Part shown: piece by piece, positions 26,690 to 60,862 of the stretch | How the letters are laid out: each line of letters starts with the position of its first letter | Position numbering within the stretch: position 1 is the first letter of the stretch | Assembly: GCA_009746045.1 (NCBI GenBank) | Contig: RPFO01000213.1 | Location: forward strand, 1,306,078-1,370,077 | Reading direction: 5' to 3' | DNA length: 64,000 nucleotides | Source of the DNA: Mesostigma viride | Taxonomy: Eukaryota > Streptophyta > Mesostigmatophyceae > Mesostigmatales > Mesostigmataceae | Program-made: the position numbers and the translations under genes | Notes under the pieces: generated by a model | Told to the model about the DNA's origin: nothing | Seen by the model: the letters and a program-made list of their open reading frames with translations, nothing else | Database searches by the model: none

Positions 26690-26716
26690 GGGCGTCCCCA
26701 ACATCTACTGCTCCAA
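26690..26716 (+). repeat. Left terminal inverted repeat, 27 bp
   Basis: It begins GGGCGTCCCCAACATCTACT and is identical over 27 bp to the reverse complement of 60836-60862. After a short divergent stretch both ends share TGGTACTTTTGA, so the related end region is about 42-54 bp. Confidence 0.9.
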
Positions 26717-26797
26717 CCTAGGGCCATTGCTGGTACTTTTGACGTCATGAAAGCAGCGTTTTGGACTAGTGGAATATGATTTTACAGCATAAAAAGT

Positions 26798-27010
26798 CCA
26801 TTTTATCATGAATGAACATGGCCAACAACCCCAAGTGCCCCTAAATTTCTCAATATTTGTAGATAAATGCTACTTCTCATAAGCTAAACCTGCACAAATG
26901 CACAATTTGGGGCATGCATGTGAAAGTTTGAAGTACAAATTCGCAATAAGGTTTTACATTTTTCAATTAATAATGGTATCTCATTCTTCAATCAATCAAT
27001 TTGCAATCGT
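26798..27010. repeat. Subterminal copy of the foldback inner arm
   Basis: About 200 bp beginning TTTTATCATGAATGAACATG and passing through AGTGCCCCTAAATTTCTCAA and GGGCATGCATGTGAAAGT closely follows the sequence at 45397-45590 and its inverted copy at 53110-53315. It lies about 110 bp inside the left end of the giant element. Confidence 0.8.
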
Positions 27011-27251
27011 CCAAACAATTTATTCATTTCATACATGTCCGAATATGTTTAAAGAACACATGCAAGTGCTCAATCAGCGTGGATCCCCTTCGACGCGCCG
27101 CACCATATATACATTCGACACGTCAACCCTTCTACTAAACTGCCACTTCCAGAAGTCGCGGTCACTGATCGAACTACTATGTACATCTGCATTTCTCAAT
27201 GTTGCGGTGGGCAAACGTGCAAAACGCGACTTCGTGCAAAGTCCTTGCCCA

Positions 27252-27982
27252 TCATCGCTTGCCAGGTCGATGTGAAGGAATGTTGTCCCAGCTGGCGCCT
27301 TCCTTCAGGAGAGTAACATGTTCGCTGGCGAACTTCAGGGGGAAACGAAACCTTCTCTCGCTCTCATCACTCCGACCGAGTTCGTACCCTTCATCAAACC
27401 ATCTGATCACCACCTTCTCCTTCTCGCGGCCCAGGAGGGTGCCAAAGAGCAGAAAATCTTCCTTGTTGGGGTACTTGTGCTGCCAGTTTAGCCACATGTC
27501 CTCTACCCATTTCGAAGTCCAACCTCCGCGACCCAGTTTCGCGCCATCCATAAAGCGCATCCGGACGTCTGGCTCAACGTCCCTGATTGGGTCGACCGCT
27601 GTGCAAACCGCCCCCTTTTCCGCAACTGGCAGCCCCCCACCATCTCTGCCCTGACCACCACCCTTCTGCGGCTGTGAAGGTTCGTCGGCACCCTCCGTCT
27701 CCTGCCCCGCCCCTCGCCTGCCCCCTCCCCGACGTTTTGCCTTCTGCCCCTGCGCAGCCGCCGCCTCTGCCATCAACTCTTCGTACGTTTTTTCTGGCTG
27801 ACCGCACGGTAAGGGTGGTGCGTGGGGTGCGTTGGGTGGGAGGGAGGCCCCTCCCGCCCCCGGTTGTGCAACTGGTGCGCCGACCGCGGCCTGGCCAACA
27901 ACACGGCCGGCCTCTCCGGACACAGTCCCAGACGCGGATCCACGGGGAAACCGAACTGGAGTTTCTTCTTCGCCTTTCCCTG
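27252..27982 (-). CDS. Cargo exon A: last recognised exon of the left-arm gene(s), unknown function
   Basis: A minus-strand frame runs from an acceptor (CTTACGTGCAG) at about 27983 to a stop at 27252. The first half is low-complexity (Pro, Gly, Ala, Gln and Lys-rich). The second half looks like a folded domain: MRFMDGAKLGRGGWTSKWVE, WLNWQHKYPNKEDFLLFGTL, VVIRWFDEGYELGR and a basic C-terminus. I do not recognise it. It lies about 550 bp inside the left end of the giant element. It may be the 3' exon of the large cargo gene upstream or a separate gene. Confidence 0.55.
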
Positions 27983-28100
27983 CACGTAAGCACATGCCAA
28001 TTAACATGAATACGGAAGGGTCGTGTGAGAAATCAATGAAGCCATGGACTGATGCAAAAAAACTTATGTAGAAATATATTAAGGTACTTATTAAACTCGT

Positions 28101-28658
28101 TTATTGAAAATGAAATTTACCGGCCGAATGTACCGTTGGAGCGTGGAAGGGCATCCTTGGTCGATCGAAGATATCCGTCAATGCGGTCAACGGTGCGGTC
28201 GATGTCCCTGGCGGCGCCTCAACATCGACCACCTCAGTCGGGCGCATCAATCCGGCAAACGCCGGCCCTCCATCTGAGACTGTCGGCGGACCCTCCACGT
28301 TACGAGCCTCAAATACCCTCTTCTGCAGTGGGGTGCTCGCAACAAAATCCGTGTCAGCCGACGGGACCGGATCGTCATCCTCATTCAGCAGTATCGTGTC
28401 CGGGCATTGCTCCATCCCCGTCGGGCGGGGGGGCAAAGTCATCACAACCGTCCTTCCTGACGACGGTACGGGATCGTCATCCATACCCAAAGAAACCGAG
28501 GCGAGGGCGGGGGTCCCCTCAACCGGGGGTCCCCATGAATCCTGACGAGGCCTCATTCCCATCTGTCGGACACGACCGCCTCCCGTAAATCGGGAACGCC
28601 CGCCGGCGCTACCAGTAACAGGCCGCGAGCCTGCTTCCTGCTGGCGATCCCCATCCAC
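28101..28658 (-). CDS. Cargo exon B: acidic/proline-rich frame with repeated DDDPVPS, uncertain
   Basis: A minus-strand frame encodes two related blocks with the motif DDDPVPS (MDDDPVPSSGRTVV and NEDDDPVPSADTDFV) followed by a proline/alanine/threonine-rich end and a stop at 28101. The internal repetition with conserved spacing suggests real coding sequence, probably disordered. It follows the 69-72-bp repeats at 28590-28910. How it connects to the upstream frame could not be resolved. Confidence 0.4.
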   Translation of the reverse strand: MDGDRQQEAGSRPVTGSAGGRSRFTGGGRVRQMGMRPRQDSWGPPVEGTPALASVSLGMDDDPVPSSGRTVVMTLPPRPTGMEQCPDTILLNEDDDPVPSADTDFVASTPLQKRVFEARNVEGPPTVSDGGPAFAGLMRPTEVVDVEAPPGTSTAPLTALTDIFDRPRMPFHAPTVHSAGKFHFQ

Positions 28659-28910
28659 ATCACAGATACGCCCGCCGGCGTTACCAGTAACAGGCTGCGA
28701 GCCTCCTTCCTGCTGGCGATCCCCCTCATCACAGATACGCCCGCCGGCGTTTCCAGTAACAGGCCGCGAGCCTCCTTCCTGCTGGCGATCCCCCTCCTCA
28801 TCACAGATACGCCCGCCGGCGTTTCCAGTAACAGGCCGCGAGCCTCCTTCCTGCTGGCGATCCCCCTCCTCATCACAGATACGCCCGCCGGCGTTTCCAA
28901 CGACAGGCCT
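28590..28910. repeat. 69-72-bp tandem repeat carrying the palindromic module, possibly coding
   Basis: Five units (starts near 28611, 28683, 28753, 28825 and 28897) share CCAGTAACAGGCCGCGAGCC and each is preceded by ACGCCCGCCGGCGTTTC or a variant, the same palindromic core found in the introns of this element. The period is a multiple of three, and the minus strand stays open (ETPAGVSVMRRGIASRKEAR repeated). It could be translated repeats or an unspliced, expanded intron module. Confidence 0.7.
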
Positions 28911-28959
28911 CGAGTCTCCTTCACCAGCACGCTGGCGCTTACCTCCCCCCCTTTTGTCT

Positions 28960-30176
28960 TCATCCCCCCCATTGTCTCCTCCCGCGAGCCTCCAGCATCC
29001 CGACTGCGCTTTTTCCCTCCCCTTCCATCTCCTCCCCCGTCCCTCTCCTCCTGGCCATCCCCTTTCTCCTCCTCGCCATCCCCTTTCTCCCCCTCCGCCT
29101 CGTCCCCCTCCTCCCCGGGCGGGTGCCCATCAGCATGATCCTCCTCCTCGTCCTCCTCGTCCTCCTCGTCCTCCTCGTCCTCCTCGTCCTCCTCGTCCTC
29201 CTCATCCTCCTCCTTCTCATCCTCATCCTCATCCACCTCCCCCACTTCCTCCTCCCCCTCTTCCCCCTTCTCCGAATCATCACCCTCATCAGACGAAGAT
29301 CGTCGTCGTCGGCAAAGTAGGCGAGGTCTGTCCACCCAGTTTTACGAAGCCGATATTTGATAAGGCGGACCAGGCGCTTCCACCGGCGGATATGGGCGGT
29401 CTCCCCGAACACCAGCAGAACTCTGCAGGGTCCCCTAAAAAGGGCGTTGGTCATGTTGTCAACCACATCCCACACGACCGGGCTGAAATGCGAGGAGGGT
29501 TTGGGCATGTGGCTGTCCTCCGGAATGCAGTCTGGGTCCCACTTGCGCAGGTTCCTCCACTTCTCGTTCCTGTCAGCTGCCAGGTCCAGCAGAGCAAACG
29601 CACGGTCCTTCAGCGACCGAGGAATTTTGTCAGACCCCGTGTACAACTCGTCCACCACCTTCGTCACCACCAGATCCTTTCTTTTTTCGTCTTCCTTCCA
29701 TATCATTGTCCTGTATGCGATCCATTCGGATCCCATCCTCACCCCCTTCCAATCGCTGTAGCCTTCCAACCTGTCCCGCCACCCCTTCTTGGCCTTGGTA
29801 GTCCCCTCCTCCGCCGCCTCCTCGACCTCCTTCTCGACCTCCGCCGCCGCCTCCTTTGGCACACCCAGCAGATGTTTGGTCTTCACCCCCAAATCGTCAT
29901 ACAAATGACGGGGGTGGGAAGCGAGCAGCCCTCTCGGGAACTTCCAGTCCTTCTGGTCGACCACTTTCCTTTTAGCCGGCGGAAGGTCCCTCAGCGTGAG
30001 AATGATCGCCCTCGTGGCCGTGACGACCACCCGCCAAAAGTCTCTGGTCAGGCGGCAGTCGGCGATGAACTTGTCGAGGTCCGTGGCGAAGGTGCCCTTC
30101 AGCTTCACGCCAAACACGTGCTCCCTCACCAATACGGGGTTGAAGGTCCCGTCTAGTTGTTTGCAAGCGGCCATCA
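28960..30176 (-). CDS. Cargo exon C: large unknown domain followed by a charged repeat tail
   Basis: The frame opens just downstream of the segment ending at 30174 and is probably one exon with it, because a one-base change in the seven-base homopolymer at 30177-30183 would join the two. The body includes DLDKFIADCRLTRDFWRVVV, HPRHLYDDLGVKTKHLLGV, KGWRDRLEGYSDWKGVRMGS and PCRVLLVFGETAHIRRWKRL, which look like a folded domain I cannot name. From about 29320 two frames compete: an Arg/Thr-rich one that continues this frame to 28960, and a strongly acidic one (GDDSEKGEEGEEEVGEVDED) that continues through KKRSRDAGGSREET to 28553. The acidic one looks more protein-like, so a frameshift near 29310 is possible. 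Confidence 0.6.
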
Positions 30177-30802
30177 GGGGGGGTTCTCCAGGAACTTGAT
30201 GTGGGCGAATTGCACGGCCGCCTCTTTCAAATTCTTGGCGACTTCCATTATTTTTATCAGGTTGCTGGGAGGGGCCTCACAGGACATGATCGGCGCTTGG
30301 ATCAGGCTGTCGAAGTACTGGAAACTCGCAAGTTCCCGATGCGCGGTGAAAATGGACAGTTCGTGCGCCTTGTCTTTAGGGCGCGCGTCAAGGAAGTCTT
30401 GCCGAGCCGCGATATCCTGTGCGATCGCCGGCTTGCCGTCGACAACGGGCTTCAAAGGGTCCTCACACCAGAACAGCCAGCGCTGCATGAAGTTCTTCTG
30501 GTCCGGCCCCCACTTGTCGGTCTCTTCAGCCCCCCTGCCTTGTCGCCGGCGCCGTCCCCTTCGGCCTTGGCTTGCTCTCCTTTCTGCCAAAAGGGCTTCA
30601 CAATCGCCCAGATCTTGCCGTACAGAGGAGTTGGGAGAGACACGCCCTTCCCTCTCTTGACGGGTCCATATGCCTGGTAGGCCCGGTGCACATCCCCCAG
30701 CGCTGAGCCCCACGTTGCCTTGGCTTGGGCTGTGTCCTCCGCGTTCATGGCGTTCCCGAGCTGCCTGACAATGCCGATCATCTCGCCGACTCGTTCGGAA
30801 AC
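30174..30802 (-). CDS. Cargo exon D: unknown, with one internal homopolymer frameshift
   Basis: It begins after an acceptor (GGCGATGCAG) at 30803. The first part (VSERVGEMIGIVRQLGNAMN, then YGKIWAIVKPFWQKGEQAKA) is in one frame. After the six-base C/G run at 30530-30535 the protein-like sequence continues in another frame (WGPDQKNFMQRWLFWCEDPL, then AHELSIFTAHRELASFQYFD). One extra base in the run would join them. It ends at 30174 in a stop that overlaps the start of exon C as TGATG, which I read as a second homopolymer slip rather than a real gene boundary. The incoming phase matches exon E. No known domain was recognised. Confidence 0.6.
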
Positions 30803-31058
30803 CTGCATCGCCGTATGGCAAAAACGCGCAGAGACACATCGACAGTCCTCCCAAATAAGCACAACTCAACTGAGAACAATAAAGCGACTCACAGAAACGC
30901 CGGCGGTCGCATCTTGACCAAAATATGGCATACTAAGGTGGAACATGAAAACCCCTTATAGAAACGCCGGCGGTCGCATCTTGACCGAACTAATGGCATA
31001 CTGAAATTAACACAAGAAAACCACTTATAGAAACGCCGGCGGTCGCAACCTGGCTTAC
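30803..31058 (-). other. Intron with three copies of the palindromic module
   Basis: The donor GTAAGC at 31058 is followed about 10 bases later by GTTGCGACCGCCGGCGTTTC. Two more copies lie at 30960-30980 and 30891-30912 in a tandem repeat of about 69 bp. The acceptor is GGCGATGCAG. Exons E and D join in phase across it. Confidence 0.75.
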
Positions 31059-32246
31059 CTTCTGTTCACGGATCTGCCACCAGGTCGGCAGGATGGTCTC
31101 ACCCTTGAGCATCTGCACGTCCACCCCCCCGAAATTCGTCCAATCAGTTGCCCACTCCTCCAGCTTCGCCGCGGCCACGGTCTTCGTGACCTCCTGCTCC
31201 TTCCCTCCCCGCGCAACGACCCTGAGCTTTTCCGCCTTCATGAAACCATTCAGCATTGCCTTGTACCACACAGATCTTTGGTCCACGGTCATATTTGGGG
31301 TGACCAGTTCGAATTTCACCGATTTGATGAGTGTGGTAAAGTGGTTCCCGTCCAGCACGAGAAAGCCGCAAATGGCTGGCGGCAACGGTGGCTTTCTCTC
31401 GAGTGGAGCCATCTCCCAGGCGGACTTGCACAAACTGTCCAAAAGCGCGGCCTTTCTCACGTCCACGGGCTTAAGATCGTCCAGAATATCGGCCGGTCCT
31501 GTCAGAACCGCGGTGGAAGCAGCTTCGGCCATCTCCTTGGCCGAGCTCGTTCGCAGGTAGATATCAATCTCTTTGTCAGTCATTGCGCGAGCGTAGCCAG
31601 CCTTCATTGTCCGTGCCCCCCCCATCTCCCCGAAGAGTTGCGCGAGCTGACGCTGGGTACCTTCCTTTTTCGTCCATTCATGAAAACTGTTGGGGCACCG
31701 GTCAGCCAAAAACTGGAACGAGTACCGCCACACAGGAATCACCAGCTTGTCGTGGCCGTAGTCGGACTCCGAGTTTGCAAAAATGGTGGCGTTCTGCTCG
31801 GCTCTAGACAGATGCAAGTCTCGTGCGAGGAGCTTCTGAGGCCCAACGAACAGGTTCCTTGTCCACACCCGATTTCGATGCACCAAGGCCTTGGACATGT
31901 CATCGAGGTCCCGAGGCTGAACGGCAAGCTGCTTCCGCAACCGTTTGCCCTTCGCGATCTCATCGTTCACATCCAGGATGTCATCATCATCCTGCGACAC
32001 CGGGGACTTCTCCCATTTCTCAAGCAGAGACACGGGAGCATCCGCAACCTCCACCTCCTTTCCTTTCCCCTTTCCCTTCAGCGCCTTCCCCTTGTGGGTC
32101 GCAAGTGCTTCGGAGAGTCCCTTCTGGAATTCGTCGACGGCAGCAGTCCACGTACTCGCTACTTCCACATCCGAGCTGCGCGCGTGCTGGTCGAGGCTGA
32201 TTGAGTACAGGATGGCCGCGTGGGTCGCCCTCTCGGCCTGCACGTA
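31059..32246 (-). CDS. Cargo exon E: 396-codon exon with a ParB-like DGNH motif
   Basis: The exon runs from an acceptor (CATCACTGCAG) before YVQAERATHAAILYS to the donor after WWQIREQK. It contains a Lys/Gly-rich linker (KGKALKGKGKGKEVEV) and an acidic turn, then a well-behaved domain: DLDDMSKALVHRNRVWTRNL, EQNATIFANSESDYGHDKLV, MTDKEIDIYLRTSSAKEMAE and, near its middle-to-end, AICGFLVLDGNHFTTLIKSV. A VLDGNH turn followed by a helix resembles the DG(N/F)HR turn of ParB/sulfiredoxin-fold nucleases, where it binds nucleotide; here the arginine is replaced by phenylalanine, so the assignment is weak and activity is doubtful. It is the largest clean exon of the left-arm cargo and joins exon D in phase. 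Confidence 0.65.
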
Positions 32247-32676
32247 CTGCAGTGATGCGAAACAATCAGGAAAGCATAACCAAAAGGAAAAAGTAAATGT
32301 CACACTTGAGAAACGCCGGCCGTCGCAACCTACATGAAACCTGAACCTCAACATCAAAGCCCCCCTCACAACAGAGGTATACTTACCTCGTTCCCTTAAC
32401 AATGATATGAAAAAATCAGGAAAGCATAACCGAAAGGAAGTGTCACACTTAAGAAACGCCGGCCGTCGCAACCTACATGAAACCTGGATCTCAAGAAGCC
32501 CCCTCACAACAGAGGTACACTTACCTCATTCCCCTTAACAATGATAGGAAAAAATCAGGAAAGCATAACCAAAAGGAATAAAGTAAATGTCACACTTGAG
32601 AAACGCCGGCCGTCGCAACCTACATGAAACGTGGACCTCAAGAACAAAGACCCCCTCACAACAGAGGTAGACTTAC
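32247..32676 (-). other. Intron built of three tandem units, each with a donor-like site and the palindromic module
   Basis: Units of about 145-150 bp each contain GAGGTAAGTNTACCTCTGTT and, further in, GTTGCGACGGCCGGCGTTTC (copies at 32599-32620, 32451-32472 and 32309-32330). The outermost donor is at 32676 and the acceptor is next to 32246. The phases of exons F and E do not agree by the simplest splice, so a frameshift or an alternative site is involved. Confidence 0.7.
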
Positions 32677-33182
32677 CTCATTCCCCTCAACCGCTGCTGC
32701 TTCAGCCGCTTTCTTCGACCCCTTCGCGTCTTCGGAGACTTGTCCCGGCGGGCATCGTGTTCCTTCAACATCTTGATCAGAGTCTTGGCGTCCGCCATCG
32801 TCACCGTCAACAGTTTACACTTCCTCTCCTTCGCTTTGCCCTCGAACAGGTTCTCCTGCATCCACTTTATCAAGGCCTTGGCGCTCGGGATCTCCTCAGG
32901 CTGTGTGGCGCCATCGGGCGCGCACGCATTCTTCACGATCAACTCAGCGACTTGATGGAGAGTCATCATCTGGTTCCGTACCTCAGGTGGGGCTGTTTCC
33001 GTTCTCACCTCGGCCACAACCCGCTTTGCCAACGTCCTCAGTTTATAAGCATCCGCTTGCTCCTTAAAGCGTGTCATTTTCGCAGTATCGCCGTCGCTTC
33101 CACCCACGCCCTCTGACACAGGCTCACCGACAGCGATAGCCCCCTCTCCCTGGAGATTTGCCCCACCCTGACGACCGGCTTC
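32677..33182 (-). CDS. Cargo exon F: unknown helical protein segment
   Basis: The exon starts after an acceptor (TTCTTGCAG) with EAGRQGGANLQGEGA, in phase with the upstream 81-nt exon. The central part is helix-rich (MTRFKEQADAYKLRTLAKRV, then QMMTLHQVAELIVKNACAPD, then SAKALIKWMQENLFEGKAKE) and the end is very basic (RRDKSPKTRRGRRKRLKQQR), a likely nuclear-localisation or nucleic-acid-binding tail. No domain was recognised. Confidence 0.6.
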
Positions 33183-33307
33183 CTGCAAGAACATTATCAA
33201 CGGAAGATCAAATAATGTAAGAAAAGTGTAAAGAAACGCCGGCCGTCGTAACTCTGTCCATTGAGGACGAACCTAAACTTTCGATTACTAAGTCAACGGT
33301 AACTTAC

Positions 33308-33388
33308 CCTTCCCCCCTCTGCAGTGGAACCACCGTAAGATCCACTTCCCCTCCTCTCACCGCCCTCCTGCTGCTCGAACGGACTTCC
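33308..33388 (-). CDS. Cargo small exon (27 codons)
   Basis: An 81-nt exon between TTTTTACAG and GTAAGTT sites, phase 0 on both sides, encodes a Gly/Ser/Glu-rich linker (GSPFEQQEGGERRGSGSYGG). It links exons 33518-33574 and F in one frame. The intron on its downstream side (33183-33307) carries a palindromic module at 33231-33252; the upstream one (33389-33517) does not. Confidence 0.55.
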
Positions 33389-33517
33389 CTGTAAAAATAG
33401 CAAACGCGATTGTCCATTCACAAGAAAAAAATTACTACAAAAATAAACAAGGATATACGCACGCAAACCATTTCATTACAAGTAAACTGCGGAGAGGAAT
33501 CTGACGCACTCATGTAC

Positions 33518-33574
33518 CTGGGTGCTTCCCGCCATTGAGCGGGCTTCTCTTGCACCCACATCCTCTTGCCGGCC
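33518..33574 (-). CDS. Cargo small exon (19 codons)
   Basis: A 57-nt exon, phase 0 on both sides, encodes GRQEDVGAREARSMAGSTQ. It joins exon H to the 81-nt exon. The introns on either side are 121 and 129 bp and show no palindromic module. Confidence 0.5.
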
Positions 33575-33695
33575 CTGCGAACATTTCAACGGAAAGTAAA
33601 AATCCGCTTAGTTGTCGGAAATGACATGTCTGGCGAATATTGCAAAAAAATGCTTATTGTATTTCACGACATCAATTAAATGGGCAGAGACTTAC

Positions 33696-34363
33696 GAAGA
33701 TCGGCCCGCCACCTTCCAAATTGCCCGGCGTCATTCGAAAACATCGAGGTCTTCCCCTCCATCGACCCCCTTCCCCCTTCCCCTTGGCCGCGGCGGGGGC
33801 ATATCGCCCGTCGCGACCGGCTTGGAAGTCGCGGGGGGATCCCTTGCGGTTGAGGGCACTGCGGCCGACTCGTGCACACTCTCCCCCCTCTTTTGGGCTA
33901 CTGCGGCAGGCGCGGCATGGGAGGGCGCGGCGGCTAGTGTCTCTGGCGCATTCTGAGCCAACCGACGCAACCTTAGCTCCTGCTGGAGCAGGGTTTCGAA
34001 ACGAGGCATGAATTGCGCTTGGAGGATAAGGCACCTTGGCGACTTCAGGTTTGTCATTAAGGATGTCTTGGTACAGCGCGAATTGCTGTTCACGAGTGCC
34101 ATTCGCGAGTCGCTCAAACCGCTCAATCTGAATCCGCTTAACCGGATCGTCCACCATCTCAAGACCACCGTGGTACTCATCCTTCCCAGTGACCGCGGCA
34201 AAGCTGACACCAGATTCCACCATTGGGGGCGGCGCCCTCCCTTGCACGCTTGTGAGGAGGCTGTTGTGAGGAGGCGCCTTGGGCCTGAACTGCTTGCCCT
34301 TCACGCTTCCCCCCTAGGGGGAGAGTCGCCGACCACCTGCGATGTAGGGCCGCCCTTTTCCAT
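33696..34363 (-). CDS. Cargo exon H: unknown, two competing frames
   Basis: The exon starts after GTTGTTGCAG with MEKGGPTSQVVGDSPPRG. The six-base C run at 34309-34314 then needs one more base to continue as KGKQFRPKAPPHNSLL. It goes on through MVDDPVKRIQIERFERLANG and EQQFALYQDILNDKPEVAKV. From about 34010 a different frame looks more like protein (MPRFETLLQQELRLRRLAQN, an amphipathic helix), while the end of the exon (EGGGPIF before the donor at 33695) is back in the first frame. Either small indels or part low-complexity sequence explains this. No function was recognised. Confidence 0.5.
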
Positions 34364-34636
34364 CTGCAACAACAAAAACAAAAATTGGAAAAATCATACG
34401 AGTCAGCAGGAAGATGCGCCCCACGTCGCAACTCAATACAAAAAATGCATCATTATGTCAAGGTACAAACAACGTTATAATTCAGAAAGAACAGAGATTC
34501 ATAACAAGAGAACGACGCACTAAAAGATGCGACCGCCGTCGCAACTTTCGTCAATTCACTCACTATACAAACAACTCTATGTCCCTCATAAAGAATCATT
34601 TGGCAAGGAAATGCAAAAAATTTCGGTTACCAACTC

Positions 34637-35150
34637 CGTCGACCCATAAGTGGTTCGCGAATGGGAAATCGCTGCTGATTTTCGGTCGGGCCCTTCATGG
34701 TATTTTCGAAATCTCGAGGCAAGGTTGCGCGGAAGAGGGCCCTCCTTAATCATGCGTGCGATCGGACTGGCCATGGAAAGGGATACCTGGTTCCTGGACT
34801 GCCTTGCAGGTCAACCATCTTGAAACTTCCCCTAAGAAGGAAATCAGACGTCAGACGGTTGAATATGCGTACGTCAAGATTTGACCAACCCATCATCCAT
34901 TCAACCACCTTCTCCGCGGCATCATGGAAGACCTGGCTCTCATCCGCCATTCCTCCAGACCCAAACAAACAATCGGCCGTGTTGTCGTCGTGCCTCCTAA
35001 GGCGAATGTTCACGTCCTCTTTGTCATCATCCATTTCCGACAGCCGAATTACAGCCCTTTTGGCTCCGTCCACTCCATCCTCAAGAAGGACGTCCATCTG
35101 CGCCCCTCCCACACAATTGTTGTCAACGTATTGTTGCAATGACGGGAAAT
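34637..35150 (-). CDS. Cargo exon I: unknown acidic/helical segment
   Basis: The frame reads HDFPSLQQYVDNNCVGGAQM, RAVIRLSEMDDDKEDVNIRL, FHDAAEKVVEWMMGWSNLDV and, after a frame change near 34775, MASPIARMIKEGPLPRNLAS up to a donor at 34636 (TTG then GTAACC). The intron that follows (34364-34636) holds two degenerate palindromic modules at 34411-34432 and 34523-34545. The left boundary near 35150 is uncertain. Confidence 0.5.
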
Positions 35151-35162
35151 CATGTCCTTTCC

Positions 35163-35317
35163 AAAGCTACGATGTGTTCCCCACACAGACCCATGTCGGT
35201 AATTGACAGCTTTTTACATTTCCTATCCCGGCACTTCTTTTCGGGATCCTTCTCAAAAATCCGGAAAACAGCGTCCTGATATGGACGTCCCCTTATGTCG
35301 ACCGTCAGACTGGACAT
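35163..35317 (-). CDS. Cargo exon J: Cys/His-cluster exon
   Basis: Directly after an acceptor (TTTCGCAG) the frame reads MSSLTVDIRGRPYQDAVFRI and FEKDPEKKCRDRKCKKLSIT, then GLCGEHI. The C-x3-C, C-x2-H spacing resembles a small zinc site, and exon K has a related one (KCDVSTCKKTALGFDLYCRK, then H). The upstream intron ends of J and K also resemble each other (GGCCGGTATGTT and GCAG before ATGTCC), so the two exons look like paralogues. The 3' boundary is not resolved. Confidence 0.5.
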
Positions 35318-35597
35318 CTGCGAAACCAGAACATACCGGCCGCGAGTAGTTTATATTATTAAAAAAAACTGGCATTTATTAAGTCATCTTCATCTATTTA
35401 TGCGAGCTAAAATTTGAAGAAAATGCAACAAAGAAACGCCCTGGGGCGCAACTTCCTCAACAACCACTTTCTACGTACAAACGAATGGCAATCACATCGA
35501 CTACGATTGTCACTACATACGAATGTCCAGACAATATAATGTGTATGTAGAGGGGGGGCATTCAACACCAGAGAAACGCCGGCGGGCGCAACTCATA

Positions 35598-36462
35598 TCA
35601 ATATAGACTGTCCCGCGACTCGTTCCACTCTCTGCAGGTTTTGCAACAACCGATCGAGCGAACTCTCGGAACCTCTTTCGCCGCCATTTCATCGACACGA
35701 GCGAACATCTCTTCTTTGGCGGCCACCAACTTTGCCTCCTTGTTGCCGGTGTCAGGATAGATTTCGGACCTCCTCGTCTTCATCGGGGCCACTCTCTCCA
35801 AATACTCTGCACACAGAGAATCCTGCTCCTCCTCCACAATCGCCTTCACGCCGGATACAATCGCTTTGGCTTTTGTTTCCACGCGAAAATCGAACTCTCG
35901 TTGAGTTATCAGCGGAATGTCGGCGAGTGCAAAACACATACGCCGATAAAGTTCGCTTACATCCGTGTCACGCGAGTCGGCAAAAGGTGTCGTCATCAAA
36001 AAGCATCTCAAGCTACTCCAACCATTTTCTTGGGCGCCGGCAACGTAGCCTCCCTTTGCCAAGTCCGCACCTGTCGCGGAGTCTTTGACTATCCAATCTT
36101 CAAGGAAGTACTCGTCTCCCCTGGTGAAATCAAAATTTACACCCAACCTCTCCGACAGTCATGTCCAGGCGAAGTCGCAGGGCCCCCCCCGCCAATCCAG
36201 GTCCGAGGGCGCCCGCCATTCCAAGTCCGCGACTGAGGGCATTTTCGATGTGACGAGAATGTTCTTCGTGCTTTCGGCAATACAAGTCAAATCCGAGAGC
36301 GGTTTTCTTGCAAGTGGACACATCACACTTGCGCGGCGCCCCTATTGAGCGAGCAACACTCTGAATGACAGTGGCAACCGCTTGGTGTTGTTGAAGTCGT
36401 TGCCAATCCTCCATCAGGAGGTGACTAGACGAATCGGACGAATCTTCCGTCGAACCGGACAT
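35598..36462 (-). CDS. Cargo exon K: Cys/His-cluster segment followed by an unknown domain
   Basis: From the acceptor before ATG at 36462 the frame reads MSGSTEDSSDSSSHLLMEDW and then GAPRKCDVSTCKKTALGFDL with a YCRKHEEH end, a putative zinc site shared with exon J. After the eight-base C/G run near 36183 and a region of frame uncertainty at 36130-36160, coding-like sequence continues (RGDEYFLEDWIVKDSATGAD, ELYRRMCFALADIPLITQRE, EEMFARVDEMAAKEVPRVRS) to a stop at 35598. The two pieces are probably one protein separated by an indel or a very small intron. Confidence 0.5.
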
Positions 36463-36626
36463 CTGCGACAAGTTACGATAACATACCGGCCCCGGAAAAT
36501 AAAATTCAAAAAACGTTTTGAAATTTTTTTATTGTACTTGTTTATTAATACGAAGGTTTAAATTTGGCGCAAAGAAACGCCCCAAGGCGCAACTTGTCGA
36601 ACAGCAATATGGCGATAAAACATTAT

Positions 36627-36830
36627 CTATTCAATGTGCGATTGATGTGCTGAAACCTTCCAGACTTTGACACTGTCCGGTATCACCGGACTCGGACGAG
36701 GAGTCGAGTCGGAAGCGAGCCAGTAATCCTCGACTATTTTTTTGATGTACAATGGAAGACTCCTTCCATTATGTCGAAGTGTGTCGGTCCTTTGCCTTTT
36801 GGCCAAACTCTCCTTAACCTCCACCATTTC
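36627..36830 (-). CDS. Cargo exon L: small C-terminal exon
   Basis: After a good acceptor (CTCCTACGCGCAG) the frame reads EMVEVKESLAKRQRTDTLRH, then LYIKKIVEDYWLASDSTPRP, and stops at 36627. It starts about 90 bp downstream of the stop of the MYND frame and could be a separate gene's last exon or an alternative 3' exon. The intron end before it resembles the sequence upstream of the MYND start (TAATTAATGTTTATAA). Confidence 0.45.
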   Translation of the reverse strand, partial: EMVEVKESLAKRQRTDTLRHNGRSLPLYIKKIVEDYWLASDSTPRPSPVIPDSVKVWKVSAHQSHIE

Positions 36831-36920
36831 CTGCGCGTAGGAGGAAAATGATACGTTATAAACATTAATTATTAAAATAACATCATATAAACAAGTTATT
36901 ACTCTACATTTCAAGTTTTT

Positions 36921-37676: not shown

Positions 37677-37744
37677 CTTTTTCAGGGAAAAAACGAACAA
37701 AAAAATTCATAAACATTAATTTATTATTTTATAATAACAAGTTA

Positions 37745-37973
37745 CTATTCCTCGGAATAGTTTTTTTTTATCCATTCCACAAACGCGTTTGTCACAAACA
37801 CCTTCCATGCTTTCTCAAGAACTTGTCCCCCTGATGTTTTTGAGTATTCAAACTCGTCATCCGAAGAAACCAACTCCGGCACATCCTCCGAGAGGGTCTC
37901 TAAATTGTCATCGGCTTTCCTTTTGCGCTTGTGGTTTCCGAAGCATTTTTTTGTTCTTCTTCTGACATTTGTT
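37745..37973 (-). CDS. Cargo exon N: basic then acidic C-terminal exon
   Basis: After the acceptor GGTTGCAG at 37974 one frame reads TNVRRRTKKCFGNHKRKRKA, DDNLETLSEDVPELVSSDDE and then GQVLEKAWKVFVTNAFVEWI up to a stop at 37745. HKRKRK is a plausible nuclear-localisation signal. The intron upstream contains at least five palindromic modules (38091-38497) and then runs into the polypurine repeats, so the 5' exon was not found. Confidence 0.55.
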
Positions 37974-38090
37974 CTGCAACCATGGAGTCATTTCGAGGGG
38001 GGTGTGGTTTAACGGGTGCAGATTTAAAGTAATTTGTTTTAGGTGAACGATGGTAAAAACTTCATTAGATATTTTAAACGAACGAGAAGC

Positions 38091-38497: not shown

Positions 38498-38549
38498 ATC
38501 ACACGGTCCAGGAAGAGTGACGTTGGCAGAATTATGGTGTTTGTAAAAG

Positions 38550-38850
<301 letters not shown>

Positions 38851-38885
38851 TCAGCTTCTTGTAAGATCATGTTTTGCATGATAGT

Positions 38886-39299: not shown

Positions 39300-39300
<1 letters not shown>
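39001..39300. repeat. Repeat of 38260-38550 on the other side of the gap
   Basis: It contains the same three last palindromic modules (39046-39069, 39160-39182, 39219-39242) and the same entry into the polypurine run. Small single-base differences, mostly run-length changes, suggest either a true tandem duplication or two uncollapsed reads of one locus. Confidence 0.85.
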
Positions 39301-41382
<2,082 letters not shown>

Positions 41383-51400: not shown

Positions 51401-53105
51401 CCGTGTACGTACATGGATGGCATTTATGTAATTAATGATGAGGATTCAGGCTCCCATGGTGTCATCATGGCTGTCTACGTACATGGATGGCATTTATGTA
51501 ATTAATGATGAGGATTCAGGCTCCCATGGTGTCATCATGGCTGGCCTACGTACATGGATGTCAAGTATAGTAAATAATGAGGATTCAGGCTCCCATGGTG
51601 TCATCATGGCCCGTCTACGTACATGGATGGCATTTATGTAGTTAATGATGAGGATTCAGGCTCCCATGGTGTCATCATGGCCCGTCTACGTACATGGATG
51701 TCAAGGAATAGTAAATGATGAGGATTCAGGCTCCCATGGTGTCATCATGGCCCGTGTACGTACATGGATGGCATGTATGTAATTAATGATGAGGATTCAG
51801 GCTCCCATGGTGTCATCATGGCTGTCTACGTACATGGATGGCATTTATGTAATTAATGATGAGGATTCAGGCTCCCATGGTGTCATCATGGCCCGTGTAC
51901 GTACATGGATGGCATTTTGTATATAATGATGAGGATTCAGGCTCCCATGGTGTCATCATGGCCCGTCTACGTACATGGATGGCATTTATGTAATTAATGA
52001 TGAGGATTCAGGCTCCCATGGTGTCATCATGGCTGTCTACGTACATGGTTGGCATTTATGTAATTAATGATGAGGATTCAGGCTCCCATGGTGTCATCAT
52101 GGCTGGCCTACGTACATGGATGTCAAGAATAGTAAATGATGAGGATTCAGGCTCCCATGGTGTCATCATGGCCCGTCTACGTACATGATGGCATTTATGT
52201 AATTAATGATGAGGATTCAGGCTCCCATGGTGTCATCATGGCCCGTCTACGTACATGGATGTCAAAGAAAAAAAAATGATGAGGATTCAGGCTCCCATGG
52301 TGTCATCATGGCCCGTCTACGTACATGGATGTCAAGGAATAGTAAATGATGAGGATTCAGGCTCCCATGGTGTCAGATGTCATGGCCTGTCTACGTACAT
52401 GGATGGCATGTATGTAATTAATGATGAGGATTCAGGCTCCATTGGTGTCATCATGGCTGGCCTACGTATGTACATGGATGTCAAAGAAAAAAAAATGATG
52501 AGGATTCAGGCTCCCATGGTGTCATCATGGCCCGTCTACGTACATGGATGTCAAGGAATAGTAAATGATGAGGATTCAGGCTCCCATGGTGTCATCATGG
52601 CCTGTCTACGTACATGGATGGCATGTATGTATTTAATGATGAGGATTCAGGCTCCCATGGTGTCATCATGGCTGGCCTACGTACATGGATGTCTCAGAAA
52701 AAAAATGATGAGGATTCAGGCTCCCATGGTGTCATCATGGCTGGCCTACGTACATGGATGTCAAAGAAAAAAAAATGATCAGGATTCAGGCTCCCGTGGT
52801 GTCATTATGGCCCGTCTACGTGTTGTTGGCATGTATGAAATTAATGATGAGGATTCAGGCTCCCACAGTGTCATCATGGCTGGCCTACGTACATGGTTGG
52901 CATTTATGTAATTAATGATGAGGATTCAGGCTCCCATGGTGTCATCATTGCCCGTGTATGTACATGGTTGGCATTTATGTAATTAATGATGAGGATTCAG
53001 GCTCCATTGGTGTCATCATGGCCCGTCTACGTACATGGGTGGCATTTATGTATTTAATGATGAGGATTCAGGCTCCCATGGGGTCATCATGGCTTGTCTA
53101 CGTAC
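48415..53105 (+). repeat. 71-bp satellite, right half, about 65 units in inverted orientation
   Basis: Same unit and linker types as the left half, read on the opposite strand. The last units near 53000-53100 mirror the first units of the left half, including rare variants such as CCATTGGTGTC and GGGGTCATC. The switch of orientation is at about 48415 and near-identical inversions recur within a few units of it (48490 and 48800). Confidence 0.95.
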
Positions 53106-53384
53106 ATGGAGTCATATTGATTCATGGAACAATGAGATACCATTCTTAATTGAAAATTGTTCTTGATACTTTCACATGCATGCCCGGAATCGTGAATTTG
53201 TGCGGGTTTCCATGATGACAATCCTCATTGAATTCTTGAGCACACAATATTGAGCAATTTAGGGGCACTTCGGCAATGTTGACCATTTTCATTCATGATA
53301 AAATTAACATTTAATGCAATAAATACATATTCCACTCATTTTAATAAACCATGCAAAAACTTTACAAGCACGCTCAAGCTAGGG

Positions 53385-53875
53385 GTGGGCTGGCATGCAC
53401 GCGTGGGTGTGGGGGTGGGCTGGCATGCATGCGTGGGTGTGGGGGGGGCTAGCCTGCATGCGTGGGTGTGTGGGGGGGCTGGCATGCATGCGTGGGTGTG
53501 TGTGGGGGCTAGCATGCATGCGTGGGTGTGGGGGGGGCTGGCATGCATGCGTGGGTGTGTATGGGGGCTGGCATGCATGCGTGGGTGTGTGTGGGGGGCT
53601 AGCATGCATGCGTGGGTGTGTGGGGGGGCTGTCATGCATGCGTGGGTGTGGGGGGGGCTGGCATGAATGCGTGGGTGTGGGGGGGGCTAGCATGCATGCG
53701 TGGGTGTGGGGGTGGGCTAGCATGCATGCGTGGGTGTGAGTGTGGGCTAGCATGCATGCGTGGGTGTGGGGGGGGCTAGCATGCATGCGTGGGTGTGGGG
53801 GGGCTAGCATGCATGCGTGGGTGTGGGGGTGGGCTAGCATGCATGCGTGGGTGTGGGGGGGGCTAGCACGCCCCA
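53385..53875. repeat. GCATGCATGC satellite, right arm, about 17 copies
   Basis: The inverted counterpart of 45180-45325, expanded about threefold. Units carry GCATGCATGCGTGGGTGTGG with a G-run of variable length. Confidence 0.93.
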
Positions 53876-55066
53876 CCCCTCCATCGGCACAGCCAGCCTT
53901 GTGAGTCTACCCTCAACAACAAGGCTGGTAGGACGACACGCCTGAGCAGCATATGTCATGCCTATCTCAGGCTAATAATGTGTGATTTTGTGCCAACAAC
54001 CAAGTTGTTCCACCCAACAACACATTATAAACCCGCTTCCAAAATGCCCAACAAGCCGGACACGTGGAGGACCACACACGCAGTATATAAAGAGAAAATA
54101 AGCTGACTTTTTATCCAGCCAACCTGTGGCTAGCTGCTCTGGTTACCATGACAAATGCTAACATTTACTCAGTGGGAAAGGTGATCATGAAGAGACCATT
54201 GGAACAGCCTACCTGACGCATGTGCCACCAAAGCATTGTGTCCCGCAAAATGCACACTGCCTCCTTTCTAACAAGCACGAGCCGCTCTCTTTAGGAGACA
54301 GGTGCCAGCTCGTCAGTGTCTGGGGAAAATGATATTGCCGCTGCTTAGGAAGACCGCGTGAATTTCCTCGAACACAACTGTCTATAAAGCAAAAGAAATT
54401 TCAGAGAAGCATGGAAATAAAAGCATTACACCTTCCCGACAGGTTGCGGGCCACGCGCTGCAGAAAGCCAGCCACGTCACAGACGAACTAGCTAAAAGAC
54501 ACCCAGGAATCCAGCGATGCAGCGCCAGGAACCGCAACTTTCTGGCTGCATCTGGCCGGAAAAAAGGCAAAAAGCTTAGGCTCAACGAGCTAAGAAAGCA
54601 GGAAAACGCTAGCTTAAGACGTTTAACACAAGAACGTACCATAACGGGCATTTATTCGTGCCCAGGCGCACAAGAAAGTCCACCCTTTCATGGAGTGGTT
54701 GGGCAGTACGCATCGCGCAGGGCTAATGTTATCTTACCGCAAAATGACGGGAAAGGTAAAGATAGCAGCGGGAATTTTTACGGCTTTAGAAACATCATTA
54801 AACTAGCTTTCCTTACGACCATCAAAACTGGTAACAATCGACAATCAACCCGGCAGGCATCCATTATACTTTATTCATCCCGACAGAAATTCAGGCCGGA
54901 CCCCCCCTGCCGATGGCAAAGAAAAAAAGCCCGCGACATTATAGATCGCAACCATCCCGCCATAAATTAGAATCACTAACTAATTTTCTCCAACAATCGA
55001 GCATTTTTTCTGCTTTCCGCGTGCCAGATTTGTCACGTTTCGTCTAAAGGCAGTCACCGCCATTAA

Positions 55067-56166: not shown

Positions 56167-56718
56167 GTTGCGCCGGCCGTCGTTATCCATGATGAACTGA
56201 ATGGGTTTCGTGCAAATCAAGTTTTTTGTTTTGGTGTTCCAGTTGCGCCGGCCGGCGTTTCCAATGGTATCTTGCGCGCACTTGCAAAAGCTTGCACGCT
56301 TATCAACATTTTGTGTTGGTAAACATTTTATCACCTCTGGGATTTCCGCCTTCACTACCTGAGTTGCTTCTTTGTGGTTTTCAAATGCAACCGAGTTACG
56401 CCGGCCGTCGTTACTCATGACAAATTGTAGGGGTTTTGTGCAAATCACTTTTGTATGGTTTACATGCATCCAGTTGCGCCGGCCGGCGTTTCCAATGGTA
56501 TCTTGCAGTTGCGCAATCAGGCCCGATTACCAAAATTGTGTTTGTACATCTTTTTTACACCTGAAGGATTTCTGCCCGCATATCCTGAGTTGCTTCTTAA
56601 TGGTTTTTAATTGCGCCCGAGTTACGCCGGCCGTCGTTATTAATGACAAACTGTATGTGTTTCATAAAATCACTTTTGTATGGTTTACATGCATCCAGTT
56701 GCGCCGGCCGGCGTTATT
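56167..56718 (+). repeat. Tandem array of about 227 bp with six palindromic modules
   Basis: Modules at 56167-56187, 56242-56262, 56395-56414, 56472-56492, 56621-56641 and 56698-56718 alternate between a GGCCGTCGTTA form and a GGCCGGCGTTT form. The repeated spacer includes TCACTTTTGTATGGTTTACA and CATGCATCCAGTTGCG. It lies in the probable 5' intron of the transposase-like gene, which ends at the acceptor at 56800. Confidence 0.88.
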
Positions 56719-56800
56719 AATGACGCTTGTCGTTCTTGTTTGATGCCCATCGTTTTCGTCGTGTCTTTAATGGTGATTATTTATCATTACTCATCCTCAG

Positions 56801-59800
56801 GGCTTTCGGTGCCGCGGGATTAAGAGGCGAAAAAAATCAGCTGCCGTCTGACCAAAGTCTGATGGCGCAATCGGGGCGGGGGGCCGTTTCCGACGGTTCG
56901 CGTCCCTTGTCCAAGGACGACCGGGAGCCTGCACTTTGCGGTCCCTGGAGCGACAAGTACATCGAGAACAAGGGGTACAAAATTGCCAATGACATCTTTC
57001 CTATCATGGCGGAACACGTGAAAGCAAACAACCACAGGACGCCAGAGATGAGCGCGGAGGTTCTGTCTTGCGCAGCTTCAAGACTAAATGCCATGGTGGC
57101 GGAGAGCAACGGCATTAAGAAGAGGAAGAACTGTGACGACGGGCTTCCTGAAAGTTGGGCGGAATCTCTTCGGGATACCATCAAGAAGGCTTTTGGCGAC
57201 TTGGGAACATCTGAGAAGGATCGTGGGCTTAGGTGGGCCTTGTGTGGACTTGTTACGAAGGCAATGGAGGGCGTCCCGGACAGGATTGTGGAGCGCGCGT
57301 TCGGGATTGACAGGCGCTTTGTCGCAACTGTTCGGGGTCACAGGGATGGAATGGAAGAAGGGGAGGACGACCTTTTGCTGAGTGCGCCAGAGAGGAGAGG
57401 AGGAAAAACGAGCTTCCGACGGAAGTCATTGCCCTGATACAAGCGTGCTGGAGGGATGATAACTTGACGCGGGCGTCTCCGAACATGAAGGATGTTCATT
57501 GTGAATGGACAAGAAAGGATTACAAACATACACTAGCGTTTTCGGAGGGTGCGCGCTACTATACTGTCTCCAAGTCGAAGATTTACGAAGTGTTCATTTC
57601 CCGCCATCCGGAGTTGAAGCCACCGCGGCGGATGGACAGTAGGGAGGGGGGGGGGGGAGGGAGAGGAGGGTGTGAGGGGGGGAAATCAGGTGATTTTGGA
57701 GACGGAGGCAGGGATGTCAATGCTACGCACGAATCAGAAGAGCACAGTTCATGTGGGATACACTACTTTTTGCAAGCATATGCCCGCATGCGTCAAGGGG
57801 CGGTGGAAAATGCGGAACTTGTGCGCATGCCAGCACCACACTACCATGCAGTCCATGGTTGGGGGGTTGGCCAAATTTCGTGCAACTTTTCATGCCAGAT
57901 GCGAGTGCGGACCTGAATGCCACGCGTGCGATCATGGTAGCCAGCTCGACGTGGGGTCGTCCGTGCCCACATGTTCCATTTTCAAAGCCACTCACACGAC
58001 AGAGTGGGTGAACAAGTTTACTTGTGAGGTGGAGGGGATGAGGGAGGGGGGAGGTTCGAGGTCGTCTGTGGGGTCGTCGCGGCCGCAGGTTCAGCCTTTT
58101 CAGGGCGAACTTGAGGATCTGCCCATGCATGGGAGGGTGCTGGACGACGAGGAAGGGGTGCCCGATCATGACCTGGGCGAGGAGTTGGGGGTTTGCTCGA
58201 TCCGGCGTAAGGCTTGTGTGTTGGGCACTTGCCTGGCTCCCAAGTGTGGAATTCGGAACTTCATGTTATGCGAACGGGAGGAGGCTTCCAACCACCTGAT
58301 TTCATGGACCAGATACGAGATGCAGGATGTGCCGCCGGGTGCGGTTCTTGGGCCAGAGGTAATTTTTAGTGGAGTGGTTGCGCCCCAAGGCGTTTCTTTT
58401 GCAATGTTTCCTGAGGTTCTTGGGCCAGAGGTAATTTTTAGTGGAGTGGTTGCGCCCCAAGGCGTTTCTTTTTCAATTTTTCCTGAGGTCCTGTCTTTTT
58501 TCTTTCTACAGGTCATTGGTGGGTCGAAGTTGATGTCTTTTCTGTATGTGCACACTGCGCATATGCAGGACGACTGTGACGAGATCGCAAAGGCTGGTGG
58601 GCAGCGATTGACGCAAGTCGACGTCAAGTCCACACCAACGGAGCTAAAGGAGGCAATTGTGGACAAGTGGCCGGACTTCATCCAGCATTGCTTCAACGCG
58701 TGGTGGCAAGCGGACGCCTCCAAGGAATGTCTCTCAAGGATGCGGGTGGGGGACCTTGTATGCCACACAGATTACGCCGAGAACTACCAGTCTTACACCT
58801 ATCACAATCTCCAAGCACAGTATTGGCATCCAGTCACATTCGTCCTTATGCCCTGGATCGTGCGCTACTTGGATCCAGCGTCGGGAAAGGTCGTGAGAAG
58901 GGAGTTTCACTTCATCGGACAGGGCGGAATGAAAAGGGACGGGCGGGCCCTCCGTTTTGCTATCCTCAAAATCCTGGCGACACTACGGTCAGAAGGGGTA
59001 GAGGTGAAGCGCTTCATTGGGTGGTCGGACAATTGCTCCATGCAGTTCAAGTCAAGGAATGTGATCGCGGAAGTGGCCCGGCTGCTGACGGAGGATCCGC
59101 ACCTGGAGTCATTTGAGTGGAATTACTTTGGGGAGCAGCACGGAAAGGGGGAGGTGGATGGAGCTGGTGGGACTGTGAAGTGCATGTTGAGGAGGTGGCA
59201 CATCAGGGAAGAGAACCAGGACAAACAGACGGCCGCCCAGTTGGTGGAGAATCTGGCGTCGGGGGCGGTGGGCGGGACCACAACGACCAGGCGTAACTTC
59301 TTCGAGTTCCCCGAGGTAATTAAGTGTACAGTCCTCGTTCAGGGAATAGTTACGCCGGCCGTCGTTTCTAGGGCGTTCTTGGAGTCCTGGCGATCAGGAG
59401 TGCTTAATAAAACACAACTAGCTCGATGGTCTCGTAACTTCAACTTTCCCTTGTGCAAATCTTGTCTTCGACGCGCAGGTGCTTCCTTACAGCCCAGGGC
59501 GCGGCGAAATCAAAGGAGTGAAGAAGGCGCACTGGTGGCGCATGGACAAGTCGAATGTGACGCGCTTAATGCTGCGCCAGTATTCCTGCTATTGTGGCGG
59601 TGCGTGCGCCGAGGAAAGGTGGTGGGATTGTCGAAAGGAGTGGACCGACATGGACGGCTGGAATGTGGGAGGTGCTCGGATGAAGCTCCACAAACTGGGG
59701 GAGCCAGTGCAAAGGAACCCAAACGGACAAGGGGGGCACGCAGGGACGCGACTGAACAGACTACAGGCAGAGAGGACGATGATGGGAAGGAGACTGAAGC

Positions 59801-60210
59801 TGCGAGACATTTTTGCCGTCGAGTCCTACTCTGGTGATGAGTCCCACGATCCAGATCATCCATATTGGCTAGCGGAAGTCTTGCAGGAGCCTTATCAGGT
59901 GGCCGCTACTTTCGTGAGGCGAGTGGCCGACAGAAACGGCAAGGTCGATAGGGAGTTGTTCCGTAAGGGACAATGGGTGGTGGGGGTGCGCTACTGGGAC
60001 AGATTTCCGGGTATGGCGACGATGTTCAAAATGGACGCCGATGCGCAAGCTGAACAGCCAAACTTGGTCAATTGCTACCTGTGCATGGACGCGGGGTTCG
60101 AACACACCATTGTTGTCAACCCAGCTAACAATCGCCAGGCCATCTTGACCATTCCGACAGACGTCGAGAAACGGCTCACGAACTTGGCCAAGAAGAGACC
60201 TGTTGAGTAG
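56801..60210 (+). CDS. DDE transposase-like protein, three visible exons with two homopolymer frameshifts
   Basis: Exons: 56801-58358, 58512-59315 and 59479-60210 (stop TAG), or starting at ATG 56862. The N-terminal part is helical (IVERAFGIDRRFVATVRGHR looks like helix-turn-helix). The middle has a Cys/His-rich knuckle (GYTTFCKHMPACVKGRWKMR, then CACQHH). The core has MRVGDLVCHTDYAENYQSYT, FIGWSDNCSMQFKSRN and FGEQHGKGEVDGAGGTVKCM. Acidic residues in these three blocks could form a DDE/DDD triad. I recall the same trio (D-F-A-E-N-Y, SDG-x-SQ-x-K, SHGKG-x-x-DG-GG) from an abundant uncharacterised animal family. The C-terminus has a CYCGGAC cluster and a BAH/SH3-like region (GQWVVGVRYWDRF). 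The frame breaks at 57373-57376 and 57646-57657, both homopolymers. Both introns carry the palindromic module. Confidence 0.75.
58359..58511 (+). other. Intron with a duplicated donor and palindromic module
   Basis: The donor after GGCCAGAG (GTAATTTTTAGTGG) is followed by GTTGCGCCCCAAGGCGTTTC at 58377. The whole 70-bp block, including TTCTTGGGCCAGAG and the donor, is repeated once, placing a second donor near 58430 and a second module at 58449. The acceptor is TTTCTACAG at 58511. The intron has no in-frame stop, so an unspliced read-through is possible. Confidence 0.8.
59316..59478 (+). other. Intron with one palindromic module
   Basis: The donor GTAATTAAG after CCCCGAG and the acceptor GACGCGCAG bound 163 bp. 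GTTACGCCGGCCGTCGTTTC lies at 59349, 33 bases from the donor. Removing it joins FFEFPE to VLPYSPGRGEIKG. Confidence 0.8.
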
Positions 60211-60835
60211 GCCAGCTCGCCCGGGCTTGGTTGGACGAGGTGGACAGCCTTGAGAGCACGTGCTTCGTTGTGAGCACTTGCCTTTCAGCCGTGATTTGCA
60301 AACGAGTTCCTTGTCCTGAATTGTAAAGCTCGATTCATGCTCTTTTAAGGAAGTGTATAATATTATCCAGATCATGTATATATTTAGATCTAGACCTGAG
60401 TTCAAATAACATTTCTTAGAGGGCTGAGATGCGCGAGGTCCAGCATACATGTATATATCCATGGAGACATGTTACAAACTCAAATGTTTCATTGTACGTA
60501 CCACTAGCTCGTCGACGGGGGTATCCCATGTAATGTATGATTTATGAATTAATTAATCGCTTAATTGTACAATTTAAATGGATCATGAACTTGTCAAGTG
60601 GCCTAATTTGGTTTATTTGGTTCATCATTTATTGATGTCAATCATTCTTAATTGAATCTCGAGCAATAGCAATCGTGAAGCAGATCCTAATCATGTGATT
60701 CGCATAATGAGAATAGGCAACAAGTGCTACTTTGAGGAATGCGGGGTTGGTCAGGTTATTATAGAGCTAGAGCTACAAACGGCACATATACTGCAAACTT
60801 TGCGCTCCAGGCATGGAATTTCAAAAGTACCAAAA
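60211..60835. other. Right subterminal region of the giant element, no recognised gene
   Basis: Downstream of the TAG stop the sequence becomes AT-rich (AATTAATTAATCGC near 60548) and holds no coding signal. It would contain the transcript end and any subterminal transposase-binding sites. Confidence 0.5.
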
Positions 60836-60862
60836 TTGGAGCAGTAGATGTTGGGGACGCCC
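60836..60862 (-). repeat. Right terminal inverted repeat, 27 bp
   Basis: Read inward on the minus strand it begins GGGCGTCCCCAACATCTACT and is identical over 27 bp to the left end at 26690-26716, with TGGTACTTTTGA shared a little further in. Confidence 0.9.

Follow-up and report, generated by a model that had tools for sequence, protein, structure and literature searches.

A probable giant cut-and-paste DNA transposon with intron-bearing cargo and a recurrent 20-bp dyad motif in the streptophyte alga Mesostigma viride

A 64,000-nucleotide stretch of the genome of the streptophyte alga Mesostigma viride (assembly GCA_009746045.1, contig RPFO01000213.1, positions 1,306,078 to 1,370,077 of the forward strand; hereafter 'the window') contains a long segment framed by identical inverted repeats. 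This segment carries a very large intron-bearing gene, small cysteine-motif open reading frames (ORFs) and a MYND zinc-finger ORF on the minus strand of its left half, and a transposase-like gene on the plus strand of its right half (Table 1), which bears out the outward gene layout given in a preliminary description of this DNA. We consider the segment very probably to be one copy of a family of giant cut-and-paste DNA transposons, with the large left-hand gene and its smaller neighbors as accessory, or 'cargo', genes.

The ends of the element are identical over 27 of 27 bp in inverted orientation, diverge immediately beyond, and are both adjoined on the outside by a 4-bp target duplication, AGAT; a base-for-base comparison thus agrees with the ends and duplication first described. 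No third match to the 27-bp end, allowing up to 8 mismatches, occurs in the 64-kb window. In simulated sequences (first-order Markov, n = 20, 64 kb each), the longest exact inverted pair separated by more than 1 kb measured 14-16 bp in 20 of 20 cases, and the 27-bp ends with their flanking AGAT are far beyond chance.

As assembled, the two ends lie 34,173 bp apart, a distance that had been taken as the size of a single unit. This figure is too high, and a single contiguous sequence of that length is ruled out, because the ends are on different contigs, split by a gap of 115 N (38886-39000), and because the contig ends repeat each other over ∼590 bp (38258-38847 and 39002-39593). Aligned over 603 columns, the repeated ends are 95.0% identical, with 6 mismatches and 23 gap openings; most of the differences are small indels, and the two look like overlapping contig ends left unmerged by the assembly. 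This overlap makes the join across the gap plausible and means that the length is inflated by ∼0.75 kb, the true value being nearer 33.4 kb. One published Mesostigma genome is described as a 442-Mb assembly with a contig N50 of 320 kb and optical-map scaffolds (PMC6947507), and scaffolding of that kind would fit the gap seen here. Indel errors of the assembly can be seen directly in the redundant contig ends.

The cargo gene, which comes within 0.54 kb of the left inverted repeat, has several introns, delimited by protein blocks and splice sites, in keeping with the preliminary description; splice sites do not define the 5' border of intron 1 or either border of intron 5. Annotated models put the encoded protein at 1,392 (P0010) or 1,589 (P0013) amino acids. 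Its relatives form at least 35 clusters with at least 167 member sequences (7,993 candidates scored), a number that is not a count of elements, some models being fragments or neighboring pieces of one gene. Every named representative is from Mesostigma, and identities of 75-98% over 16-84% of the query give a pattern like that of a repeated family. Were all 167 sequences to enter paralogue analyses, as many as 13,861 pairs could result; the published Mesostigma peak of synonymous divergence (Ks) was based on 56,595 pairs, possibly from a different gene set (PMC6947507).

An earlier ParB-like label for this gene found no support. No ParB match was obtained in Pfam (P0010, P0013, P0014, P0041 and P0016) or in PHROGs and NCBIfam (P0010 and P0014), a profile search of solved structures with the cargo protein returned a single match at E 1.5, and the AlphaFold model is unusable (mean predicted local distance difference test score, pLDDT, of 29). 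A short stretch, 'LDGNH', is all that recalls ParB, by eye, and ParB is rejected as an established name, although a remote homology may exist. The MYND protein of the preliminary description is present as one ORF inside the element. A second MYND protein is encoded near this MYND-carrying transposon: a 1,189-amino acid open frame outside the element (17697-21266, minus strand) has Sel1, TPR-like and MYND matches. Some ORFs at 35.3-36.8 kb on the minus strand begin at, or a few bases past, a site resembling an AG acceptor (CAG|ATG at ∼35.3 and ∼36.5 kb are examples), as if spliced to an upstream leader.

Not all apparent frameshifts in this copy of the cargo gene appear to have the same origin. 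One, 'KAGGLKRPTSGG', recurs in models P0021-P0023, at most one of which can be this locus, and is therefore probably inherited. Others fall within homopolymers and could have arisen in the assembly, as the many indels in the overlap of the contig ends suggest.

The transposase-like gene, which lies at the right and on the plus strand as previously described, ends 0.63 kb from the right inverted repeat and is supported by annotated relatives, its family being unmatched in Pfam; the annotated Mesostigma model P0008 supplies its two introns. Upstream of the start of that model, positions 57398-57607 match P0009 (36% over 70 amino acids, E 3e-7), while P0002, an open frame further upstream, has no significant match to P0009 (best E 0.36); the start at 56862 is thus inferred. 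The 5' pieces can be joined only across apparent frameshifts, one near 57.4 kb and one in a G-run near 57.65 kb. Relatives of the frame comprise two protein clusters with 10 member sequences, both of Mesostigma viride models: the first, with 9 member sequences, is 99% identical, and the second is a 1,018-amino acid relative at 46%. A second search with both sequences aligned added none among the 7,996 candidates sharing most words. D283, D369 and an acidic third block, 'GEQHGKGEVDG', are common to the two sequences in a two-sequence alignment, and in a low-confidence model (mean pLDDT 32.6) they fall in an RNase H-like order of strands and helices.

The two halves of the element are also linked by a 20-bp dyad motif, first met through a tandem-repeat search: GWWRCGMC-N4-GKCGYWWC, in which each arm is the reverse complement of the other. 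Of its 29 sites, introns hold 13 in the cargo gene and 3 in the transposase-like gene; another 3 stand between ORFs, 3 precede the transposase-like gene, and 7 form an array at 38.1-39.2 kb (two of these probably duplicated by the assembly). All 29 are inside the element, on both sides of the scaffold gap and of an 11-kb inverted-repeat block, with none outside it in the window, none among the 9,100 bp modelled as coding and none in the inverted-repeat block itself. The pattern matched once in 100 simulated windows; because it was fitted to this window, the counts serve for description, and copies in tandem do not count as independent. The motif is found in 5 of 5 larger cargo introns and 2 of 2 transposase introns, and is absent from the short final gap in the cargo gene (∼28.10-28.00 kb). 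Its asymmetric flanks, GTT...TTC, run with the neighboring genes in 24 of 24 strict seeds (two being probable assembly duplicates). A reading of the motif as an RNA hairpin is not favored, positions 7 and 14 being unpaired in 17 of the 29 sites.

Together with the ends, this motif is the best evidence that both halves belong to one element, because it spans the gap and both gene sets. Its symmetry would most simply be that of a binding site for a dimeric DNA-binding protein, which we infer to be encoded by the element.

Table 1. Features of the element and its immediate borders (window coordinates; dyad sites are those of the 20-bp motif).
Feature	Position	Strand	Remarks
Left target duplication	26686-26689		AGAT
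Left terminal inverted repeat	26690-26716	+	27 bp
Large intron-bearing cargo gene	27255-35153	-	Apparent frameshifts; from tblastn blocks, homologues and splice sites
Left dyad sites (23)	28665-39242	-	13 in cargo introns, 3 between ORFs, 7 in array
Small cysteine-motif ORFs	35601-36462	-	Upstream of cargo gene; 35649-35996 joined to cargo in P0041
MYND zinc-finger ORF	36924-37676	-	251 amino acids; PF01753, E 2.5e-7
Scaffold gap	38886-39000		115 N; redundant contig ends on both sides
AG-rich microsatellite	39305-41382		2 kb
Inverted-repeat block	44001-55058		11 kb; 71-bp and 30-bp tandem arrays; no dyad motifs; probable nested insertion
Right dyad sites (6)	56242-59368	+	3 upstream of transposase-like gene, 3 in its introns
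Transposase-like gene	56862-60207	+	Annotated relative P0008 starts at 57714; upstream of 57398 putative
Transposase-like intron	58359-58568	+	Dyad motifs at 58377 and 58449
Transposase-like intron	59316-59478	+	One dyad motif at 59349
Right terminal inverted repeat	60836-60862	-	27 bp
Right target duplication	60863-60866		AGAT

The inverted-repeat block between the gap and the transposase-like gene has mirrored tandem arrays, with 71-bp arrays on its two sides in opposite orientation, and an alignment of the outer 1.6 kb of its arms contains 1,557 identical positions, 43 mismatches and 358 gap positions. A search for a flanking target duplication gave none of at least 6 bp, and a 5-bp GCCAT pair noted by eye near its ends is within chance. 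The block is probably a nested insertion, an element of its own, and the missing dyad motif fits its later arrival. The ends of the block, GGGCGACTGC and GGTGACTGCC, vaguely resemble the outer GGGCG end.

When the flanks of the whole element are joined with one AGAT removed, a 116-amino acid open frame crosses the junction, and this frame and pieces of the outer flanks resemble, by eye, a degenerate retroelement pol ('DFKRAFLKG', 'DPCLF', 'GDD', 'GTLAWLA'). This lends weak support to insertion into a retroelement pol gene. Elsewhere in the window, the left end holds 34-bp and 36-bp tandem arrays (1-951 and 2094-3993, 96-97% matches); no Rfam family reached the gathering score, and a bacterial-code search found no tRNAs.

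These features suggest how such an element might work. A DDE-type transposase with an RNase H fold, encoded at the right end, would bind the 27-bp inverted ends, cut there and insert with a 4-base stagger, producing the AGAT duplication. The left half would travel as cargo, consisting of the MYND protein, the small cysteine-motif proteins and the one very large intron-bearing gene, and a dimeric DNA-binding protein of the element's own would occupy the dyad sites, regulating or marking the element. The inverted-repeat block would have entered this copy later and, judging by the frameshifts, the copy may no longer be autonomous.

Several observations weigh against this interpretation or parts of it. 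The name transposase derives from a residue pattern and a poor structural model; the best Pfam scores for P0009 are non-significant (TniQ 0.11, DUF7869 0.12), and no homologue outside Mesostigma emerged from two protein searches or from scans of viral and prokaryote sequences (for the transposase-like protein, 23 pattern matches in prokaryote genomes, none confirmed; for the two proteins in viral contigs, 45 and 46, none confirmed). Cargo member sequences far outnumber transposase-like ones, and it may be that the transposase is missing from many copies or that the two genes do not always move as a pair. For the dyad motif, sites in cargo introns 3-5 and in both transposase introns lie at least partly in open reading frames, where their intron status depends on the gene models. 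In P0036, a model from another copy, one such place is read through and the residues encoded by the motif are retained, which also means that the motif is present in at least one other copy. The orientation of one array, at 28.66-28.90 kb, is opposite to that of the other clusters. At the insertion site, the junction is also open on the other strand (113, 86 and 69 amino acids), so that openness proves nothing, and the reading of the flanks as pol found no confirmation in Pfam or in solved structures.

The unequal family sizes (at least 167 cargo against 10 transposase-like member sequences) might instead reflect two or more unrelated insertions, of the cargo family and of the transposase-like family, that came to lie within the ends of a much smaller transposon, with some help from scaffolding. 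Both the gap that parts the two halves and the inverted-repeat block inside would suit such an assemblage, but the dyad motif occupies introns and spacers of both halves and nothing else in the window, the contig ends overlap by ∼590 bp, and each gene lies close to its nearest inverted repeat (0.54 kb for the cargo gene, 0.63 kb for the transposase-like gene); we regard this explanation as very improbable. A different question is what the motif is. Its presence in every larger cargo intron and both transposase introns, the common sense of all 24 strict seeds (subject to the two probable duplicates and the non-independence of tandem copies) and published introners with 4-bp duplications and inverted ends (PMC9860276) could point to a signal of splicing or intron origin, the relic of an introner that spread along with the introns, rather than to a protein-binding site. 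We think this unlikely: the motif has dyad symmetry and is also present in spacers between ORFs and ahead of the transposase-like gene, the sites at 28.66-28.90 kb form an antisense array, and the distance from the 5' splice site varies from 9 to 57 nucleotides (in four introns with a defined donor and the motif close behind). Nor is the element's likeness to introners close, for these are near-identical introns with ends fixed at splice sites, whereas here only the 20-bp motif is common and the donor distance varies.

Within the reading as a giant cut-and-paste transposon, a narrower form would make the element a Sola1-like member of the Sola superfamily, the streptophyte counterpart of Sola1-1_Ec32 from the alga Ectocarpus, with the large left gene in place of a ParB/methyltransferase accessory gene. 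The 4-bp duplication is that described for Sola2 (PMC3627910), and the giant size and large gene opposite the transposase recall the 21.5-kb Sola1-1_Ec32 as described in PMC12477816. Set against these are the Sola2 duplications given in PMC3627910, which consist of A and T only, as AGAT does not; the cargo protein, in which no ParB or methyltransferase domain was found; and the basis of the likeness, which is drawn from descriptions and not from transposase sequence. We hold this assignment to be a serious possibility, if somewhat short of probable. Less likely still than an introner origin of the motif, and at present doubtful, is the bolder proposal of a new superfamily, so far limited to Mesostigma, whose own protein would bind a parS-like dyad in nearly every intron and spacer, marking or regulating the element along its whole length.

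If the transposon interpretation is correct, giant DNA transposons with accessory genes extend to an early-diverging streptophyte at the base of the land-plant lineage, and a whole annotated Mesostigma gene family would be suggested to be transposon cargo. The dyad motif would then offer a concrete candidate for a self-recognition site, in line with PMC12477816, where proteins encoded by accessory genes of giant algal transposons are suggested to bind, modify or mark the element they come from. New aspects are the lineage of the host, the unmatched protein families and the presence of a dyad motif in introns. Among the matches listed from the open-access literature, none dealt with a giant transposon in Mesostigma.

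By its inverted ends and short target duplication, the element resembles class II cut-and-paste transposons. Elements of the Kyakuja-Dileera-Zisupton (KDZ) group generate an 8-bp target duplication, as opposed to the 4 bp found here, and EnSpm/CACTA elements have CACT(A/G) ends and a 3-bp duplication, as opposed to ends reading GGGCGTCCCC and 4 bp. Polinton/Maverick elements carry capsid genes and make a 6-bp duplication, Helitrons encode a Rep/helicase protein and have neither inverted ends nor a duplication, and Starships bear a tyrosine-recombinase captain at one end. Polintons are further characterized by a family B polymerase and a retroviral-type integrase (PMC6431247). Pfam scans of 16 element ORFs, smaller ones being outside the scan, and 7 relatives matched no Polinton polymerase, integrase or capsid, no Helitron Rep/Hel and no Starship captain. 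The 4-bp duplication also differs from that of Polintons, and the inverted ends and AGAT are unlike Helitrons; the preliminary description likewise saw no match to these three layouts.

Its further claim of a new kind of giant element in algae was overstated, since PMC12477816 already reports algal DNA transposons of giant size that carry accessory genes. That paper describes giant KDZ, EnSpm and Sola-1 elements in Ectocarpus, generally above 10 kb and in some cases above 30 kb, with nested insertions fixed among copies, transposases that are often broken, and accessory genes. In the review PMC6431247, which deals with further giant elements, the terms 'algae' and 'Sola' did not turn up on a text search. 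Among those further elements, Teratorn, a piggyBac-herpesvirus fusion of 41-182 kb (PMC6431247), is similar to the Mesostigma element in being giant, with terminal inverted repeats and additional internal ones, and differs from it in its viral component, no viral gene having been matched by Pfam in the scanned ORFs and relatives. KDZ giants, which reach 30.3 kb in Ectocarpus and include a 31.7-kb element observed moving in Chlamydomonas (PMC12477816), compare by description in size, algal host and a large transposase accompanied by accessory genes, and EnSpm giants (up to 15.2 kb in Ectocarpus, and also known from red algae; PMC12477816) in being large elements with terminal inverted repeats and several accessory genes; the duplications and EnSpm ends noted above distinguish both groups. 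The 4-bp duplication fits Sola by description. Compared with Sola1-1_Ec32, whose ParB-like/methyltransferase gene lies on the strand opposite the transposase (PMC12477816), the Mesostigma element is larger (∼33.4 kb) and has a MYND gene, an intronic dyad motif and no detected ParB or methyltransferase domain, while sharing the plan of a giant algal DNA transposon with a transposase and a large accessory gene on the opposite strand.

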